DNA of 53,284 nt from Chloroflexota bacterium (GTDB taxonomy: Bacteria; Chloroflexota; Dehalococcoidia; UBA2979), in contig VGPD01000011.1 of assembly GCA_016875635.1 (NCBI GenBank), forward strand, positions 1 through 53,284, in the 5' to 3' direction. Shown in pieces: positions 4,751 to 53,284 of the stretch. The notes below the pieces were generated by a model that saw only the letters and a list, made by a program, of their open reading frames with translations, was not told the origin of the DNA and ran no database searches. The position numbers were made by a program, and so were the translations under genes. The first letter of the stretch is position 1. Each line of letters opens with the position of its first letter.

Positions 4751-6088
4751 CTACCCCTCGCCGCCACGGTCAGCCTCGAGCAACTGCGCCACGCGGCGTC
4801 CGAGGCGGATCGAGTAGTTCTGTCCCCGGTCCTCCGGGTAGATCTGCGTCGTGTTCGCCAGGTAGAGGCCGGCCACAGGGGTGCGGTGCGGCGGGATGTT
4901 CTCGTGGTAGCGGGAGTGGACGATCGGCTGCCCGGCGCGGTCCTTGAAGAGCCACTGGCCCTTGATCCACGAGCGGTCGAACGCCGGGTTGATCCGACGG
5001 ATGTGCGCCTCGTACCGGTCGAGGACCGCGGCGGCGTCCTCTTCGATGATCGGGTCGCCGGGGTCGACGTAGTTCGAGAAGTAGACCGGGTGCAGCCCGC
5101 CGTAGGTCGAGGGCGGCACTAGGTTCGTCTGCTCCACGGCGACGACGAACGGGCAGTCGTGCTCCGTCATCGTGAGCCAGTAGATCGGCGAGAGCGGCCG
5201 GTCGAGGGCGAGCACCAGCACCGTCGCCCACTGGTATCGCACCGCGCCGAGCATCCGCGCGTACTCCGGCGACGCCTCGCCGACCTCGGGCGCGATCTGC
5301 GCGAACAAGCCGCTGGGCACCGTCGCGATCACGGCGCCCGCGGCGATCACCTCGCCGCTGCGCGCGCCGCCGAGGCGCACGCCGGCGACGCGGCCGTCTG
5401 CCACGACCACGCGCTCCACGGGTGCGTTGAGGTGCAGACGTCCGCCGCGCGCCTCGATCTGTGTGGCCAGCGCGTCGACCATCCGGCCGAACGATCCGCG
5501 CAGGTAGCCGAGCTGCTCCTTCGCGAAGAGCCCGCCCTGACGGCTGGCGAAGCGCAGGTAGATCTTCCCCCAGAACCAGACGAGGGAGACGTCTTCTGCA
5601 TGCTCACCGAACTTCGCGCGCAGCAGCGGCCCCCACACCTTGTCGTAGCCCTGTCTGCCGACGGCGCGCCGGATCCACGTCGCCGCGCGCTGGCCCTCGT
5701 ACTTCGTCCAGTCCGCCTGCCGGCGCAGCAAGAGCGCGGCGAGGCCGAGCCGCACGCGCGTGAGCAGCGAGACGCGGTCGAACTTCAGCAGGTCCACCGG
5801 CCCGACGAACGGGTAGGACTTCCCGTCCGCGTGCAGCCCGACGTTCGAGTCGATCCACTGGAGGTCGTCGCCGAGGCCCAGCTCTCCGAGGAGCGTCCCG
5901 ATCTCGGTGTCCGAGAGGAAGAGGTGGTGGTAGAACGACTCCAGCCGCCCCCCGCCGACCTCGAAGGTGCGCACCTGGCCGCCGAGCACCGGGCCCGCCT
6001 CCACGACATCGACCTCGTGTCCGCGCCCCGCGAGGTCATAAGCCGCCGCCAGGCCCGCGACGCCCGCGCCGATGATCACGATCTTCAC
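4751..6088 (-). CDS. FAD-dependent amine-oxidase/protoporphyrinogen-oxidase-like oxidoreductase
   Basis: A 445-residue flavoprotein. The Rossmann dinucleotide site is at the very N-terminus (KIVIIGAGVAGLAAAYDL), with the FAD-ribose acidic residue in VDVVEAG and a GG-R motif following. The C-terminus has the second FAD contact (GLYLANTTQIYPEDRGQNY). The family (Amino_oxidase fold) includes carotenoid and hopanoid desaturases, PPO and UDP-galactopyranose mutase-like enzymes; the substrate is not resolved. GTG 6088 (GGGGAG 7 nt upstream) overlaps the stop of the membrane-protein gene as GTGA, so the two are translationally coupled. The link to an LPG-synthase-like membrane protein and to Agl23/YYY genes suggests a role in lipid or envelope glycan metabolism (inference). 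Confidence 0.82.
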   Translation of the reverse strand: MKIVIIGAGVAGLAAAYDLAGRGHEVDVVEAGPVLGGQVRTFEVGGGRLESFYHHLFLSDTEIGTLLGELGLGDDLQWIDSNVGLHADGKSYPFVGPVDLLKFDRVSLLTRVRLGLAALLLRRQADWTKYEGQRAATWIRRAVGRQGYDKVWGPLLRAKFGEHAEDVSLVWFWGKIYLRFASRQGGLFAKEQLGYLRGSFGRMVDALATQIEARGGRLHLNAPVERVVVADGRVAGVRLGGARSGEVIAAGAVIATVPSGLFAQIAPEVGEASPEYARMLGAVRYQWATVLVLALDRPLSPIYWLTMTEHDCPFVVAVEQTNLVPPSTYGGLHPVYFSNYVDPGDPIIEEDAAAVLDRYEAHIRRINPAFDRSWIKGQWLFKDRAGQPIVHSRYHENIPPHRTPVAGLYLANTTQIYPEDRGQNYSIRLGRRVAQLLEADRGGEG

Positions 6089-7086
6089 GATGCGCTCCCC
6101 GCGGGTTCCGGCGGCAGTTCGGTCGTCGCCAGCGTGCGCAGCCCGAGTTGCTCGCGCCACAGCAGCACGACCCCGGCCAGCGCCACCGGGACCAGCACCA
6201 CGGCGTGCAGCACGAGCGCGTACGCCGTCGCCAGCGCGCCCGCGACGCCGAGTGCGACCGCGACCTCGCGCGCGAAGAACTCGTAGGGGCCGATGCCGCC
6301 CGATGTGCTCGGTGCGGCGATCGCGAGGTTCGCGGCGGCGCAGATGCCGAGGTACGCCCACGCGCTGAGCCCCATCCCGAACGCCTCACCCACCGCCCAG
6401 TAGCACGCCGCCTCCAGTGCCCATGAGGTCGCCGTCAGCGCGAGGACGAGCGTCCACGTCCGGAGGCCGCGCACCAGCACGAGGCCGTCGAGGAACTTCG
6501 CCGCGAGCGCGTCGAGCCGCGCGTGCAGGCGGCCCGGTGCGATCCGAAGGACGCGGTCGATCAGTCGCCAGACGCCGCGCGGCCACGCCGAGAGCGCCGC
6601 AAGCCCGACGAGCAGCCCCGTGAACCCCGCCCCCGCGACGAGCGCGAGGGCGCGCAGCGGCCCGCTCGTCGTGCCGTCCGCGATCACCGCCGCGAGGAAG
6701 ACGGCGAGCACCGCGCCGTCGAACACGCGCTCGACCACAATCGTCGCGAGCGCGGTCAGCGCGGAGCCGCCGTGGCGACGCTGGAAGAGGACGCTGCGCA
6801 CCACCTCGCCGGCGCGAGCCGGCAGGACGTTGTTCGCGGCGTAGCCGATCACCAGGAGCGAGGCGGCGTCCGTCGTGCGGACCGCGCGCACCGGCCGCAG
6901 GATCACCGCCCAGCGTGCGGCGCGCACCCAGAGCGCGGCGGCGAGCAGGATCAGCGCCGGGATCAACCAGCCGGGCCGCACCTCGCGCAACGCGTCGAGG
7001 AGTTCGTGCCGGTCGACGCGGATGAGGAGCAGGGCGATGCAGAGCGCGCTGACGCCGAGGCCGATCCAGGTGCGAGCGTGGCGCAT
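6085..7086 (-). CDS. lysylphosphatidylglycerol-synthase-like polytopic membrane protein (UPF0104/AglD family)
   Basis: A 333-residue integral membrane protein with about eight hydrophobic segments. The family signature is clear: a loop with RAARWAVILRPV, then IGYAANNVLPARAGEVVR and a downstream VVERVFDG. These occur in the membrane part of MprF and in AglD/YbhN proteins, thought to move or position lipids. It lacks the soluble aminoacyl-transferase domain of full MprF, so it is unlikely to make lysyl-PG by itself. ATG 7086. Its stop overlaps the start of the FAD oxidoreductase (GTGA). Confidence 0.87.
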   Translation of the reverse strand: MRHARTWIGLGVSALCIALLLIRVDRHELLDALREVRPGWLIPALILLAAALWVRAARWAVILRPVRAVRTTDAASLLVIGYAANNVLPARAGEVVRSVLFQRRHGGSALTALATIVVERVFDGAVLAVFLAAVIADGTTSGPLRALALVAGAGFTGLLVGLAALSAWPRGVWRLIDRVLRIAPGRLHARLDALAAKFLDGLVLVRGLRTWTLVLALTATSWALEAACYWAVGEAFGMGLSAWAYLGICAAANLAIAAPSTSGGIGPYEFFAREVAVALGVAGALATAYALVLHAVVLVPVALAGVVLLWREQLGLRTLATTELPPEPAGSAS

Positions 7087-41775: not shown

Positions 41776-42102
41776 CTACGCGACGTCGCGTGGATGGATA
41801 TCGAGTGTCACCGTCCGATCCGCGAATCGCGCGGAGAGCTCGAGGTGTCCACCGAGCGCCTCGATATACTGGCGCAGCGTGGAGAGCCGCATGTCGTCGG
41901 AGTGTTCGAACTTCGACACAGCCGCCTGCGTGATGTCGAGCCTGGCGGCAAGGTCTGTCTGCGAGACATCCTGCGACCGGCGAAGTTCGAAGAGCCCGAC
42001 CTCGGCGAGGGCCTCCTCACGAAGGGCTGCAACGCGCTCCTTCGCACCGGGGCGGGCGATCACTTGCTCATGGAGCGAGCGGTAGGGCCTGGTCTTCGGC
42101 AT
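41776..42102 (-). CDS. HigA/XRE-type helix-turn-helix antitoxin
   Basis: A 108-residue protein. The HTH is VSQTDLAARLDITQAAVSKFE (about residues 46-66), followed by STLRQYIEALGG and a short beta C-terminus (LELSARF, VTLDIHPRD). It starts at ATG 42102, 4 nt after the toxin stop, with GGGGAG upstream. The toxin-first order is typical for HigBA-like modules. Confidence 0.85.
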   Translation of the reverse strand: MPKTRPYRSLHEQVIARPGAKERVAALREEALAEVGLFELRRSQDVSQTDLAARLDITQAAVSKFEHSDDMRLSTLRQYIEALGGHLELSARFADRTVTLDIHPRDVA

Positions 42103-42106
42103 CGTG

Positions 42107-42460
42107 TTACTCCCCTCGTTCCAGAGCGGCGAGATGTTCATCCATGAGTTCGTCCGCGATCGGGACAGCGATGCGATACCACTCATCCCACTGACCGGTC
42201 TTGTTCCCACCGATGAGGAGAATCGCCGCGCGTCGGGGATCGAAGGCAAAGAGCACACGGAGGGCGCCATCGCTCGAAGCCCGCAACTCCTTCATGTTGG
42301 GATGCCTGGACGAGGCGACCACATCAACCAGAGGACGGCCGAGCGCCGGACCGGCTTCCGCGAGCAATGAGACGCGCGCGTCGAGGGCTTCCTGCTGTGC
42401 CACGGAGATCACTTCCCACCACACTTCGAACTGTTCCGTGAACTCGACTTCCCAGGCCAA
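42107..42460 (-). CDS. RelE/HigB-like toxin (phage Gp49-like)
   Basis: A 117-residue mRNA-interferase-like protein. EVEFTEQFEVWWE, GRPLVDVVASSRHPNMKELRA, LRVLFAFDPRRAAILLIGGNKTGQW and WYRIAVPIADELMDEHL correspond to the Gp49-like toxin pattern. TTG 42460 was taken as start because GAGGT lies 6 nt upstream. First gene of the module. Confidence 0.87.
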   Translation of the reverse strand: MAWEVEFTEQFEVWWEVISVAQQEALDARVSLLAEAGPALGRPLVDVVASSRHPNMKELRASSDGALRVLFAFDPRRAAILLIGGNKTGQWDEWYRIAVPIADELMDEHLAALERGE

Positions 42461-47541: not shown

Positions 47542-47793
47542 ATGCCAATCCGAGGCTACGTACTTGTCGAGACCGGAGTCGGGCACACCCGAGCGGTGGC
47601 CGACGCCATGCGCGCCGTCCGCTCGCGGAACGCCTCGATCATCGGGGTGGACACCGTCACCGGGCCGTACGACGTCATCGTGACCCTGGAAGCCGAGGAC
47701 CTGAACCGGCTGGGGAAGGCGATCACGGAAGAGATCGCGACGGTGGCGGGCGTCTCGCGCACCACGACCTGCCTGAGCGTGGATCTGTCATGA
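47542..47793 (+). CDS. stand-alone Lrp/AsnC ligand-binding (RAM) domain protein
   Basis: An 83-residue protein. GYVLVETGVGHTRAVADAM, GVDTVTGPYDVIVTLEAED and VAGVSRTTTCL correspond to the RAM/ACT-like fold of Lrp/AsnC regulators, without the HTH. Such proteins bind amino acids and oligomerise; they may modulate full-length Lrp or act in metabolite sensing. ATG 47542. The last codons overlap the next ORF (ATGA). Confidence 0.87.
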   Translation: MPIRGYVLVETGVGHTRAVADAMRAVRSRNASIIGVDTVTGPYDVIVTLEAEDLNRLGKAITEEIATVAGVSRTTTCLSVDLS

Positions 47794-47945
47794 AGCAAGA
47801 ATCATCCCAGCCGACACCGCCCCCGAGCGGGTTCCTCGCTCGGTTCGGGACGGTCACGCCGCTGAATCGCCCCGAGGACTGGGCGGCCATCCGGCGGGCA
47901 GTCGCCAGAGCAGTAGGTCTGCGTGCCGCTGAGAGGGGTCAGTAG
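47790..47945 (+). CDS. 51-residue ORF resembling an antitoxin C-terminal tail
   Basis: A short frame coupled to the RAM gene by ATGA: MKQESSQPTPPPSGF, then LARFGTVTPLNRPEDWAAI and RRAVARAVGLRAAERGQ. The 'FGTVTPLNRPEDWAAIRRA' stretch looks like the toxin-binding tail of AbrB/MazE-type antitoxins as remembered; there is no DNA-binding domain. It might be a free toxin-neutralising peptide or a truncated remnant. Confidence 0.5.
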   Translation: MKQESSQPTPPPSGFLARFGTVTPLNRPEDWAAIRRAVARAVGLRAAERGQ

Positions 47946-48034
47946 CCCGCCCCGCCCGGCTCGCGCACCACGACTTGCTCGCTGGCTTTGTCGTAGCCCT
48001 CGGCGTCTGAACTGGCGAGGCCCCGGACGATGTG

Positions 48035-48044
48035 CTACATGTAG
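48035..48044 (+). promoter_or_regulatory. palindromic operator of the Phd/VapC module
   Basis: CTACATGTAG, a perfect 10-bp palindrome ending 4 bp before the antitoxin ATG, is of the kind bound by Phd/YefM antitoxins (TGTA/TACA cores). The antitoxin gene has no ribosome-binding site between this element and its start. Confidence 0.55.
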
Positions 48045-48048
48045 ACAC

Positions 48049-48342
48049 ATGGCCATCCGCATCGGCATCCGCGAACTGCGGCAGAACGCCAGCCTCTACC
48101 TCCGGCGCGTCCGCGCGGGCGAGACGATCACGCTGACCGACCGTGGCGAGGCGTTCGCGGAGATCCGACCAATCAGGCAGGCGGGTGGCATCCTCGACCG
48201 GCTGGTCGCGGAGGGACGTGCGCGGCTGCCCGAGGCCGACCTGGCCGCGTTTCTCGCGCAGCCGCTGCCGCCCCCCTCGAAGCGGGGCAAGCGTGCACTG
48301 AGCGATGAGGTCATCAGGGCGCGGGCGGACGAGCGGTTCTAG
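48049..48342 (+). CDS. Phd/YefM-type antitoxin
   Basis: A 97-residue protein. MAIRIGIRELRQNASLYLRRVRAGETITLTDRGEAFAEIRPI is the classical Phd/YefM N-terminal DNA-binding fold; the rest is a polar helix-rich tail (LVAEGRARLPEADLAAFL) for toxin contact. ATG 48049 is preferred over longer frames. The toxin follows directly after the stop. Confidence 0.92.
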   Translation: MAIRIGIRELRQNASLYLRRVRAGETITLTDRGEAFAEIRPIRQAGGILDRLVAEGRARLPEADLAAFLAQPLPPPSKRGKRALSDEVIRARADERF

Positions 48343-48729
48343 GTGCTCTACGCCGACACCTCGGCGCTTGTGAAACTGGTGTTGACGGAGCCCGAATCCG
48401 CCGCCCTCCTCGCGTACCTCGACGGTCGAGGCGACGTCGTGACATCGGCGCTGGTCACCACCGAACTCGTCCGCGCGGTGCGACGCCTGCAGCCCGACCT
48501 CGAGCCTCGCGCACACGCACTGATCGCCGGGCTGACTCGGATCGAGGTCGACCGCGAGGTGCTGACCACTGCGGCAGGACTGTCACCTTCCGAGATGCGC
48601 TCACTCGATGCGATCCACCTCGCGACCGCCCTCACGCTCGGCGCCGAACTCGACGCGCTCGTCACGTACGACGTCCGCATGGCCGAAGCCGCCCGCGCGG
48701 CGGGCCTGCGCGTGGAGGCGCCGGCGTAG
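48343..48729 (+). CDS. VapC-type PIN toxin
   Basis: A 128-residue PIN nuclease with D5 (YADTSALVKL), E41 (VTTELVRAV), D89 (SLDAIHLATAL) and D110 (VTYDVRM). GTG 48343 abuts the antitoxin stop. Type II toxin, RNase activity expected. Confidence 0.93.
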   Translation: MLYADTSALVKLVLTEPESAALLAYLDGRGDVVTSALVTTELVRAVRRLQPDLEPRAHALIAGLTRIEVDREVLTTAAGLSPSEMRSLDAIHLATALTLGAELDALVTYDVRMAEAARAAGLRVEAPA

Positions 48730-50390: not shown

Positions 50391-50735
50391 ATGCCCAAGA
50401 CCCAGAAAGAAATCGACCGCGAGATCCAGCGCGGACGGGATGATGAAGCGCTCCGGACGCCGGTGGACATGCACCGGGTCACCGCGGTCCTCGCGCTGAA
50501 CTCCTCGGAGTTCGCGCAGTGGTACACGGACCACGGCAAGAACCCGCGCGACCGCAATCTCCTCATGATCACGCCGGCGACCACCCGCAACCTGAAGGAC
50601 GCCCACCTGGAGATCACGCCGCGCGGCATGTGGCGGTCGGACATCCACATCCTGATGCAGGGACTCGTCCCCGCGCTCGACGCGCCCTCGCAGCGTCGCC
50701 TCGGCGGCATGGGCTGGGGTCAGCCGGTCCCCTGA
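50391..50735 (+). CDS. small hypothetical protein
   Basis: A 114-residue polar protein (MPKTQKEIDREIQRGRDDEA...). No signal, membrane segment or family was recognised. ATG 50391, with GAGGTAG upstream. High Arg/Asp content suggests a soluble cytoplasmic protein. Confidence 0.6.
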   Translation: MPKTQKEIDREIQRGRDDEALRTPVDMHRVTAVLALNSSEFAQWYTDHGKNPRDRNLLMITPATTRNLKDAHLEITPRGMWRSDIHILMQGLVPALDAPSQRRLGGMGWGQPVP

Positions 50736-50792
50736 CTCTGGGCGCTCCTCAGGTCTCGAACTCAAGTCGAAGCAGGTCCTGTCGCGCCGGAG

Positions 50793-50840
50793 CCCTCACT
50801 CTCTGCCCGCTCTCCCGCATGGCGGGAGCGGGGGAGTGAG
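50793..50840. repeat. REP-like imperfect palindrome
   Basis: The convergent spacer 50736-50936 contains CTCACTC / GAGTGAG arms around CCGCTCTCCCGC, an ATG loop and GCGGGAGCGG. The structure can form a long hairpin in either orientation, so it may terminate both flanking genes or be a member of an interspersed repeat. A second hairpin follows at 50857. Confidence 0.55.
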
Positions 50841-50856
50841 AACCTCCACTCCCTAA

Positions 50857-50878
50857 CCCCTCCCCTCACGGGGAGGGG
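50857..50878. terminator. bidirectional hairpin in the convergent spacer
   Basis: CCCCTCCCC (50857-50865), TCAC loop, GGGGAGGGG (50870-50878): a perfect 9-bp stem between two convergent genes. No T-tract. Confidence 0.5.
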
Positions 50879-50936
50879 CGCTGGCTTAGCTTTGCTTGCG
50901 AGAGCCGGGCTTCGGGTCGGGCGCCGGCGTGTCCGA

Positions 50937-51959
50937 CTACCGCGCCCAGGTGATCGGCGACTCCCCCGCAACGCTCACCGCGGCCACGCCGACGTTCCCG
51001 CCGGGGCGGCACGGCTGCAGCGGGCCGTACTGGCGGTCGGTGGCTTTGACCTCGATCGCGTTCCCGACAGGCACGCCGGAGCAGTCGCGCTGGTAAATGC
51101 GGAACCCCGTCACCGCGAGCGATGACTCCCACGACACCGTCACGCGCCCTCGCTCGGCCTCGCCGGCCGGGACGGTCATCGTCAGGTCGGAGATCGAGCC
51201 GGAGAGGCGCGCGTTCGTCGGCGCGGGCGGGCCGCCGACCGGGATCGTCGTCGAGCCGGCGATGAACGTCTTCGTGGTGTCGTTCACGTTCACGGTGATC
51301 GTGCGCCCGAGGACGAAGTCGCCGGTGAGCTGGATGCGGTTGCTCGTCCAGCCGATGATCGCGGGGCAGGCCACGAGTGTCTGGGGGACCCGGTTGTAGA
51401 CCGTGACCTCGAACGTGTCGCCGGTGCGCTTCGTGTCGATGCGCTCGAACTTATCGCAACCGGCCACGACGGAGGTGACCACGGCCCAGTACGACGGCTC
51501 CGGGGAGTCGCTGCGCACGACCTCGATGGTGGTGATCGAGGCAAGCGCGAGGCCGGTCGGGAGCGGCGCGGGTTCGCAGCGCACGAAGAAGCCGGTGCCG
51601 GCGGTGAGCGTCGGGTAGGCGGCGAGGAACGGCGTGTTCACGAAGGTCGGCGCGGCCGGAGCGGCGACGAATGTCTGCCACTGCCCGCCCACCGTCACGG
51701 CGATCACGCCGGGCGTGCAGCCCGCCACCCTCAGCCCGGAGGAGAGGTCTGCCGGCGTCACGGTGCGCGAGGTGCGCAGCAGCGCGAGCTCGCCCGGCTT
51801 CGGCGCGACGCCCTCGAAGGGTGCCGGGAGCGGCAACGTCGTGGGCGCCTCCTGGGCCTCGATTGGCCTCGGAAGGAGGAGCGTGGCAGCCAGCGTGGCC
51901 ACGACGAGCGCCACCGCCCAGCCACGCATCGAAGTCATGTGAGCCGTCATGTGGGACAT
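50937..51959 (-). CDS. secreted protein with FN3-like C-terminal domain
   Basis: A 340-residue protein with a cleavable signal: a long basic start, hydrophobic stretch about 14-30, and EAQEAP near the cleavage site. Four Cys lie in the mature part. The C-terminal region (PPAPTNARLSGSISDLTMTVP, VTVSWESSLAVTGFRIYQRDC, GVAAVSVAGESP) reads like a fibronectin-III-type beta sandwich. The central part is unknown. ATG 51959; in-frame ATGs at 51947 and 51938-51926 are alternatives. It is divergent from the cupredoxin gene. Confidence 0.78.
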   Translation of the reverse strand: MSHMTAHMTSMRGWAVALVVATLAATLLLPRPIEAQEAPTTLPLPAPFEGVAPKPGELALLRTSRTVTPADLSSGLRVAGCTPGVIAVTVGGQWQTFVAAPAAPTFVNTPFLAAYPTLTAGTGFFVRCEPAPLPTGLALASITTIEVVRSDSPEPSYWAVVTSVVAGCDKFERIDTKRTGDTFEVTVYNRVPQTLVACPAIIGWTSNRIQLTGDFVLGRTITVNVNDTTKTFIAGSTTIPVGGPPAPTNARLSGSISDLTMTVPAGEAERGRVTVSWESSLAVTGFRIYQRDCSGVPVGNAIEVKATDRQYGPLQPCRPGGNVGVAAVSVAGESPITWAR

Positions 51960-52130
51960 CTGGAACCTCTCAGGTACGCCGTCCTGACCTCGATGGAGGC
52001 GTCGGCAGCGACCTCAACATGACGCAGAGGCAGGCCTGACAGTTCCCGGGGGGGAGATCGCCTCGTCGGATCCGACTCATGCATTATGTCGAAAGAAGGC
52101 GTGGGAGGGTGACCTTCGCGGCACGAAACC

Positions 52131-52155
52131 GGGACGTTTGGTACCCGAACGTCCC
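52131..52155. promoter_or_regulatory. 25-bp dyad in the divergent intergenic region
   Basis: GGGACGTT (52131-52138) and AACGTCCC (52148-52155) form a perfect 8-bp inverted repeat with GGTACC at the centre. It lies about 85 bp before the cupredoxin gene and 170 bp from the secreted-protein gene, in a 280-bp spacer otherwise without genes. A transcription-factor site is likely; it matches no operator recalled. Confidence 0.6.
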
Positions 52156-52182
52156 TAAGTGACCGACTTAACATTCCGTCGT

Positions 52183-52208
52183 CCGGAAGGCACGCACCGT
52201 CCTTCCGG
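52183..52208 (+). promoter_or_regulatory. leader hairpin of the cupredoxin/NirK-like gene
   Basis: CCGGAAGG (52183-52190) and CCTTCCGG (52201-52208) form an 8-bp inverted repeat with a 10-bp loop, ending about 31 nt before the ATG. Role unknown; possible mRNA stabiliser or second operator. Confidence 0.4.
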
Positions 52209-52239
52209 TTCGGCCGTTCCGGTTGCGAGGGAGACGATT

Positions 52240-53284
52240 ATGGATTCTGGCTACGAGATGATGGCGTCGTTCGGCGCCATCCTGGCCGCGGGGGCGTTGC
52301 TGGTCGCCTCGGTCGCCCTCGTCAGCGATGGCGGAGGTGGGACGTCCGGCGAGGCGAAGGATGTGGCCGCCGCCACCCTGCCCCCGCCGACGACGAAGGC
52401 GATCGACGTCGAGCTCGGCGACCTGTTCGTGAAGCCGAAGTCGATCGAGGTGGCCTCGAACACCACGCTCGAGATGACCGTCACGAACAATGGGGCGCTC
52501 CCGCACAACCTGAAGCAGGGCACGGCGGGGACGAAACTCCTCACCCCCGGCGAGTCCGAGAAGGTGACGTTTGGTCCGTTCACGAAAAGCGTCCAGTTGA
52601 TCTGTGACGTGCCGGGCCATGCTGCCGCGGGCATGACCATGGACGTGAAGGTGGCGGCTCCGGCCGGATCGCACACGACCTCCACGACCGCGCTGGCAGC
52701 AGCCTCCAACGGCCTCGGCGCGAAGATCGACGCGGCGGCGACGCCGGGCGCGAACTGGAAGCGACGCGACCCCCTCGCGCCCGCGGCCTCCACCGGCACG
52801 ACCGGGGTGACGCACAAGATCAACCTCGACGCTGTCGAGTCGGTGATCGAGGTCGCCCCCGGGGTGACGCAGGAGTTGTGGACGTTCAACGGCCAGGCGC
52901 CGGGCCCGGTGCTGCGCGGCAAGGTCGGCGACACGTTCGAGGTGACGCTGACGAACAAGGGCAAGCTCGGCCACTCGATCGACTTCCACGCGAGCAAAGT
53001 CGCCTGGAACGACGAGATGCGGACGCTGAAGCCGGGCGAGAGCCTCGTCTACAAGTTCGAGGCGAAGCATTCCGGGATCTACATGTACCACTGTGGCACG
53101 GCCCCAGCGCTTCACCACATCGGCAACGGCATGTTCGGTGCGATCATCATCGACCCGCCCGGCCTCGCGGCGGTGGAGCGTGAGTTCTTCTTCGTGCAGT
53201 CGGAGATCTACACCGGCCCGATGGGCCAGCCCGGCGACCTGACGAAGATGACGACTGAGGCCTGGGACGACGCGGCTGACACGG
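52240..53284 (+). CDS. membrane-anchored cupredoxin fused to a NirK-like multicopper domain (C-terminus outside the window)
   Basis: A partial protein of 348 codons. Residues about 8-29 form a signal anchor. Domain 1 (about 50-140) is a plastocyanin-like cupredoxin with a full type 1 copper set H89, C122, H127, M132. Domain 2 starts near 190 and matches NirK-type multicopper oxidases: H245-x4-H250 with D248 between them (GHSIDFHA), then H284-C285 and HHIGNGM with H293 and M298. In Cu nitrite reductases these are the type 1 and type 2 copper ligands and the catalytic Asp. The remaining type 2 His, in the next cupredoxin domain, is off the window. ATG 52240, with GAGGGAG upstream. An electron-transfer domain fused to nitrite reductase is known elsewhere. 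Confidence 0.87.
   Translation, partial: MDSGYEMMASFGAILAAGALLVASVALVSDGGGGTSGEAKDVAAATLPPPTTKAIDVELGDLFVKPKSIEVASNTTLEMTVTNNGALPHNLKQGTAGTKLLTPGESEKVTFGPFTKSVQLICDVPGHAAAGMTMDVKVAAPAGSHTTSTTALAAASNGLGAKIDAAATPGANWKRRDPLAPAASTGTTGVTHKINLDAVESVIEVAPGVTQELWTFNGQAPGPVLRGKVGDTFEVTLTNKGKLGHSIDFHASKVAWNDEMRTLKPGESLVYKFEAKHSGIYMYHCGTAPALHHIGNGMFGAIIIDPPGLAAVEREFFFVQSEIYTGPMGQPGDLTKMTTEAWDDAADT

Follow-up and report, generated by a model that had tools for sequence, protein, structure and literature searches.

An anchored cupredoxin-NirK fusion and its promoter element in a Dehalococcoidia-related bacterium

Fusions of an electron-donor domain to the copper nitrite reductase NirK occur in some bacteria, as the earlier note on this DNA stated, and the architecture has been published (Decleyre et al., 2016; PMC4770552). 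In the accessible part of that study, all actinobacterial NirKs considered bear an N-terminal cupredoxin with the motif CX4HX4M in front of a clade II-like NirK, and the role of the extra domain is called unknown. A homologue with the same tethered cupredoxin has been solved from Hyphomicrobium denitrificans (2dv6, 6tfd/6tfo). According to the available text of PMC7201279, its N-terminal cupredoxin copper lies approximately 24 Å from the core copper, and pulse radiolysis, cited there, suggests that electrons enter first at the N-terminal copper; a mutant in the type 1 copper of this cupredoxin is reported to have higher activity (PMC4770552). The architecture is thus known, and its part in electron transfer is disputed.

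The window analysed here is a stretch of 53,284 nucleotides (G000:C11:1-53284) from a genome of 2.09 Mb in 85 contigs that is 90% complete. It ends within a gene that encodes, in this order, a hydrophobic anchor, a cupredoxin and the first domain of a NirK, the latter two with their copper ligands, downstream of a promoter with an element conserved in some near relatives. Its domains follow one another as in the Hyphomicrobium enzyme, and the copper sites and catalytic residues, read in part from orthologues, agree as well. It differs from that enzyme in sequence (27–28% identity in the Foldseek rows of the orthologue L035), in its N-terminal membrane helix and in the modelled domain arrangement of L035, which is unsure. 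It differs from the NirKs of PMC4770552 in its Dehalococcoidia-related host, and it lacks the long transmembrane domain reported there for Propionibacterium and seemingly present in L057. The literature searched, with most subscription papers outside it, yielded no account of a cupredoxin-NirK from Dehalococcoidia and none of a regulator for one, and a search on nirK-cupredoxin genes of Acidimicrobiia returned no paper. We are confident in the joint reading of a membrane-anchored three-domain NirK with a promoter element that is likely the site of a regulator. As such, the gene encodes an ordinary enzyme of published architecture, and the promoter is modestly interesting.

Reading frame, domains and the missing C-terminal half

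The gene (52240..53283, +) begins at ATG 52240 and is cut by the end of the contig at 53284 after 348 codons. Its open frame extends upstream of this ATG, and the coding start is 52240, not 52131; the start is common to three congeners (L006, L007 and L025), the four proteins beginning MDSGYEMM, MDAGYKML, MDSGYKMM and MDSGFKMM. A ribosome-binding-site-like GGGAG can be read at 52229..52233 (+). A TIGR02376 search of the genome found no second piece of the gene, Rfam at gathering threshold gave no match in 51900-53284, and a plasmid search with the last 7.3 kb of the window gave a single short match, to a DUF2867 gene.

The anchor is a single hydrophobic segment at residues 11-29 (52270..52326, +), with a mean Kyte-Doolittle value of 2.29 compared with 1.28 for the best segment past residue 40. 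The only charged residues before it are two acidic ones, so that charge gives no prediction of topology. Relatives differ in their anchors: some have a hydrophobic helix, and L008, L038 and L056, judged by eye, a lipobox-like Cys. The N-terminal cupredoxin spans residues 56-138 (52405..52653, +; PF00127, Copper-bind, E 3.5e-11) and has the type 1 ligands H89, C122, H127 and M132, the last three within a CX4HX4M motif, CDVPGHAAAGM (residues 122-132), N-terminal to the NirK core. The first NirK domain spans residues 203-307 (52846..53160, +; PF07732, Cu-oxidase_3, E 8e-17) and contains HSIDFH (H245, D248, H250), YHC (H284, C285) and HHIGNGM (H293, M298), providing core type 1 ligands H245, C285, H293 and M298, type 2 ligands H250 and H284, and the catalytic D248. 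Judged by their E values, including that of TIGR02376 (6.5e-32), the predicted domains are clearly beyond chance. The earlier note had named the complete ligand set of the extra cupredoxin, NirK-type ligands in the next domain and a membrane anchor; all three were confirmed from the sequence, by Pfam and by a check of positions. Together, domains, ligands and anchor support its reading of a membrane-anchored cupredoxin-NirK fusion.

The remainder of the protein has to be read from relatives. Three of four other genomes of the genus carry the gene, with identities of 86% (G003), 79% (G004) and 87% over the part present (G002); the frames of G003 and G004 are whole (488 and 479 aa), and that of G002 is apparently split across two contig ends. 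In named genomes 24 nirK loci were found, the nearest being the Dehalococcoidia bins L035 (85% identical to the window), L036 and L040, and CX4HX4M lies within the nirK frame in 20 of the 24. Nineteen full-length relatives were aligned, leaving out L040 (a fragment), L052 (an N gap), L058 (frame breaks), and L057 and L055, which differ in ligand or domain; in L057 (Actinomadura, 956-aa frame) Leu replaces the core type 1 Met. Throughout the alignment (19/19) the four cupredoxin ligands are invariant, as are core type 1 H243/C283/H291/M296, type 2 H248/H282/H435 and the catalytic D246 and H381 (L035 numbering). In the window the contig stops short of the catalytic His and the third type 2 His, which are among these residues invariant in the 19 relatives, L035 included. 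The last type 2 His had been proposed as a check on the enzyme, its lack being an argument against a nitrite reductase: it is kept in all orthologues aligned, and the window's own allele ends before it. Alignments of L035 to Geobacillus NirK and AniA extend through SSFHV and this His; in the PDB alignments they cover SSFHVVGT and, on the side of Geobacillus NirK, the histidine of YPIVTH. By the SSFHV motif of its orthologues, the window protein appears to be clade II-like.

A structure model of L035 is of middling quality (pLDDT 71.6, pTM 0.63) and comprises a helix at residues 2-27, a cupredoxin and a NirK core. Its top Foldseek match is the three-domain NirK of Hyphomicrobium, 2dv6 (E 9.4e-29, 444 columns), and this match is good per domain and not in arrangement (rmsd 18.9 Å, TM 0.54-0.59); we do not trust the placing of the cupredoxin in the model. 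The core of L035 has the two-cupredoxin fold: VIA gave Z 29.0 with an rmsd of 2.6 Å over 277 residues, and the 50 matches listed (Z 27.2-29.2) are nearly all NirKs.

The best NCBIfam match of the window protein is TIGR02376 (copper nitrite reductase), below the curated cut-off; three full-length relatives reach 146, 149 and 157 bits against a curated equivalog threshold of 296.3. The earlier note had allowed for a related oxidase. That the gene encodes a two-domain laccase or other multicopper oxidase is highly improbable: the Pfam domains are named after multicopper oxidases, and the genus and its family also contain cupredoxin-laccase fusions of similar length (L026, L027, L067 and L066), but the motifs of these laccase-like paralogues are HFH/HSH/HLH/HCH and those of the window HSIDFH/YHC/HHIGNGM, catalytic Asp included. 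Its orthologues add SSFH and THKF, so that the residues form the NirK set (HxxDxH, HC, SSFH, THxF) and not the HxH pairs of laccases, and solved nitrite reductases head the lists of structure and sequence matches. The sequence, with the last type 2 His kept in orthologues, instead supports a membrane-bound nitrite reductase. We infer that, in its Dehalococcoidia-related host, the NirK would sit on the outer side of the membrane and act as a trimer in which a type 2 copper between subunits converts nitrite to NO, with electrons probably passing through the core type 1 copper.

Kinship and the role of the extra cupredoxin

A tree was built from 32 catalytic cores (with L058 and L040 left out, the latter being the same gene as L009, which is included), and in it the window and its congeners form four rows with support 100/100. 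They fall within a 25-row clade (100/99) of Actinomycetota and Chloroflexota NirKs, 17 rows of which are Actinomycetota, and this clade is separate from the cupredoxin-free NirKs of the window's own family (L013, L014, L064 and L065). With 10 of 29 inner branches weak, the tree suggests a transfer of nirK between phyla, in either direction. A swap of modules between cupredoxin-NirK and cupredoxin-laccase was also considered; a 98-column tree of the N-domains, with 14 of 29 inner branches open, showed none, and in it the window's domain groups with four other NirK modules (99/98). The second type of fusion in the family joins a CX4HX4M cupredoxin to a laccase-like two-domain oxidase (HFH, HSH, HLH, HCH). 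It was seen at L026, L027, L067, L066, L063, L011, L012, L017 and L028, and a C-terminal piece of 140 codons lies in the window's own genome (G000:C9; L106 4229-4651).

All rows of the 25-row clade have the cupredoxin except L009 (a fragment), L052 (the N gap) and L055, where it is absent. The latter (L055 7581-8894), an Actinomycetota NirK, has anchor and core without the cupredoxin, and no CX4HX4M frame of >80 aa occurs elsewhere in its 16.5-kb locus; it is an apparent natural loss of the domain. This case bears on the idea that the cupredoxin is a dispensable structural or tethering module and not an electron port, which we rate at somewhat below even chances. The distance between the coppers and the more active mutant of the Hyphomicrobium enzyme point the same way as L055, but all four copper ligands of the cupredoxin are invariant in 19 relatives, where a mere spacer would need none, and the pulse radiolysis likewise argues for a role in electron entry. 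The same distance, mutant and L055 leave the earlier description of the reductase as self-sufficient unsupported. We favour a cupredoxin on a linker rich in Gly, Ala, Ser and Thr as the likely port for electrons from a membrane donor.

The promoter element

The earlier note placed a 25-bp dyad upstream of the gene, and it is real: at 52131..52155, GGGACGTTTGG TAC CCGAACGTCCC (GGGACGTT-TGGTACCCG-AACGTCCC) pairs at 10 of 11 arm positions in an 11-3-11 layout. Such a dyad alone is not rare. A repeat of equal quality occurs in 3/100 control upstream regions, or 9/100 with any loop of 0-10. It is credible because it is conserved in near relatives. Compared with L006 it matches at 19/25 positions, is the best-conserved 25-mer of the promoter, and was equalled in 0/2000 shuffles. 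The match to L025 is weaker (17/25; 11/2000 shuffles as good, or 13/200 if any promoter 25-mer is allowed), and a shift of the 25-mer by one or two bases raises the score to 18. The 12/25 positions shared with L036 (1749/2000 shuffles as good) amount to absence. The full dyad is likewise absent in L008, a cupredoxin-NirK locus from a different genus within the family, and a third congener keeps a half-site and not the full dyad. Allowing three mismatches or fewer in five genomes of the genus, the dyad pattern was found at the nirK sites of G000 and G003 and at one other place in each, and in none of the other three, the L025 site of G002 falling below the cut.

The half-site has a wider distribution. 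An extra copy, GTGACCTTCG, lies at 52109..52118 (+), 22 bp upstream of the left arm of the dyad; by eye, half-site copies 22-23 bp apart can be read as a direct repeat. Downstream, a -10-like hexamer, TAACAT (52169..52174, +; a pattern match only), begins 38 nt after the first base of the dyad; a sigma-70 scan of 50700-52300 gave no match. A half-site GTGACSTTYG (at least 8/10) precedes TANNNT by 36-38 nt in 6/14 nirK promoters (the window, L006, L007, L025, L013 and L014), in 0/2 laccase-type promoters and in 3/354 window chunks, the window's own promoter included, with a consensus that was drawn from the tested nirK promoters themselves. When a matrix built from the genus only was applied to nirK promoters of the other lineage, 0, 3, 3 and 11 of 100 controls were as good or better for L014, L013, L065 and L064, respectively, these controls being partly dependent, since the top one is a nirK promoter itself (L036) and the next two are one site at the same locus. 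For L041, L016, L044, L015, L008 and L010 the figures were 6, 15, 24, 94, 100 and 100. A 16-mer around the half-site (one mismatch or none) occurs at seven places in nine genomes, two of them exact and both before nirK, compared with two for the reversed control; this search is circular in that the consensus comes partly from the two exact sites. As a separate observation, a small palindrome that shares the GTGAC core, GTGAC[CT]TTCGTCAC, lies ahead of the genes for cytochrome c oxidase in G000 and G002 (L104 4761-4774 and L075 99-112).

On these comparisons the promoter element looks real in part of the family, and several relatives lack it. The leader hairpin of the earlier note (CCGGAAGG/CCTTCCGG; 52183..52208, +) is present and its fold is not conserved, with z -2.8 in the window against -0.8 and -0.5 in the leaders of L035 and L036. 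One possibility, which we find rather unlikely, is that the dyad reflects chance or an RNA-level hairpin such as a terminator or attenuator, and not an operator. The frequency of equal repeats in controls, the absence in L036 and the RNA at 52100-52245, which folds better than shuffles (z -2.9), would fit this, but a terminator scan of 50700-52300 gave no match, the 25-mer is the part of the promoter best conserved in L006, and the half-site also stands before nirK genes of the other lineage. We prefer to view the element as most simply the binding site of a regulator, which would overlap the -35 region: its half-site, GTGAC[CG]TT[CT]GG, takes the form of an 11-3-11 dyad in three congeners, and it lies immediately before the -10-like hexamer.

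Candidate regulators and the genomic setting

The proposed dedicated regulator did not emerge from the vicinity of the gene. Five further ORFs of the window were searched, at 47.5-52 kb and in one case at 46 kb; only one of them resembles a regulator, an 83-aa Lrp/AsnC ligand-binding domain encoded at 47542-47793, which is 4.4 kb from the gene. A regulator of Nnr/Fnr type, suggested earlier, fared no better: no Crp/Fnr helix-turn-helix (PF13545, E 0.001) was found in the window's genome, at its 90% completeness, nor in G001 or G004, with weak matches in G003 and two over the cut-off in G002.

Rrf2 proteins, on the other hand, occur in 10/10 genomes searched. One type, CX6CX5C, shares a contig with nosZ in G002, G003 and G004, lies next to an NnrS-like gene in G000, and is encoded divergently from nirK in G032 and G062. 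At L106 5908-7863 (G000:C9) the Rrf2 gene (5908-6438), one of three in that genome, is paired with a gene for a membrane protein that resembles NnrS (PF05940 at 6.8e-4, under the cut-off), and the pair at L102 5178-9879 (G003:C33) lies beside the nos operon. There is precedent in NsrR, an Rrf2 protein that controls nirK in Nitrosomonas; in the accessible part of PMC1274295, Rrf2 is tied to nirK and nnrS in Nitrosomonas and Neisseria, also where DNR is missing. The published NsrR motif, gATGyAT-N5-ATrCATc, is a different sequence from the window dyad. In geometry the window resembles the class 1 operators of RsrR, another Rrf2 protein, which as described in the available text of PMC5015018 combine 11-3-11 repeats with lone half-sites. 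An 11-3-11 repeat also precedes the Rrf2 gene in four members of the genus (10, 10, 11 and 10 of 11 positions; arms A[AT]TGTGTAG[CT]G), in an operator scan covering 14 of 27 Rrf2 loci, and differs in sequence from the window dyad. Sought in nirK promoters of the genus, this repeat reached at best 7-8/11 (the window, L006, L036 and L025) and was rejected there; in the nirK promoter of L008 it reaches 10/11. Geometry and precedent agree and the operator sequence differs, so Rrf2 is only a candidate, though a better guess for the nirK regulator than Crp/Fnr or the Lrp/AsnC-like ORF. A bolder and improbable extension is that two unrelated nirK lineages in this Dehalococcoidia-related family, the cupredoxin-NirK shared with Actinomycetota and the two-domain NirK, might share the GTGACSTTYGG element, as 11-3-11 dyad or half-site, and an iron-sulphur regulator of Rrf2 type might read it; of five genomes of the genus, four are without a Crp/Fnr helix-turn-helix over cut-off.

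A denitrification chain is not demonstrated in the window's genome, since no NO reductase (the sole PF00115 match is a CtaD-type haem-copper oxidase), no NosZ beyond a weak cupredoxin match, and no NarG over cut-off were found in this 90% complete assembly. NosZ passes the cut-off in G002 and G003, and G004 has it in two pieces. None of 18 frames tested around nirK in L035, L036 and L040 belongs to denitrification; an ABC transporter, MoeA, an FAD-binding reductase and a beta-CASP nuclease are among those encoded there. Elsewhere in the genome, an operon resembling DMSO-reductase type II (G000:C2; L103 4183-10642) encodes a 1175-aa molybdoenzyme, an iron-sulphur subunit, an EB_dh-like subunit and a chaperone. 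The window also contains two toxin-antitoxin-like pairs, a Phd/YefM-like (below cut-off) and a PIN-domain protein at 47923-48729 and a Gp49-like and an HTH_3 protein at 41776-42460 (- strand).

In conclusion, the published NirK architecture is extended to uncultured Dehalococcoidia-related bacteria, in a protein whose clade also takes in NirKs from Actinomycetota, Acidimicrobiia among them. Within this clade, L055 lacks the cupredoxin and so allows the disputed role of the domain to be examined by comparison in nature. The promoter element provides a testable entry to the control of nitrite reduction in bacteria without an evident FNR-type regulator.
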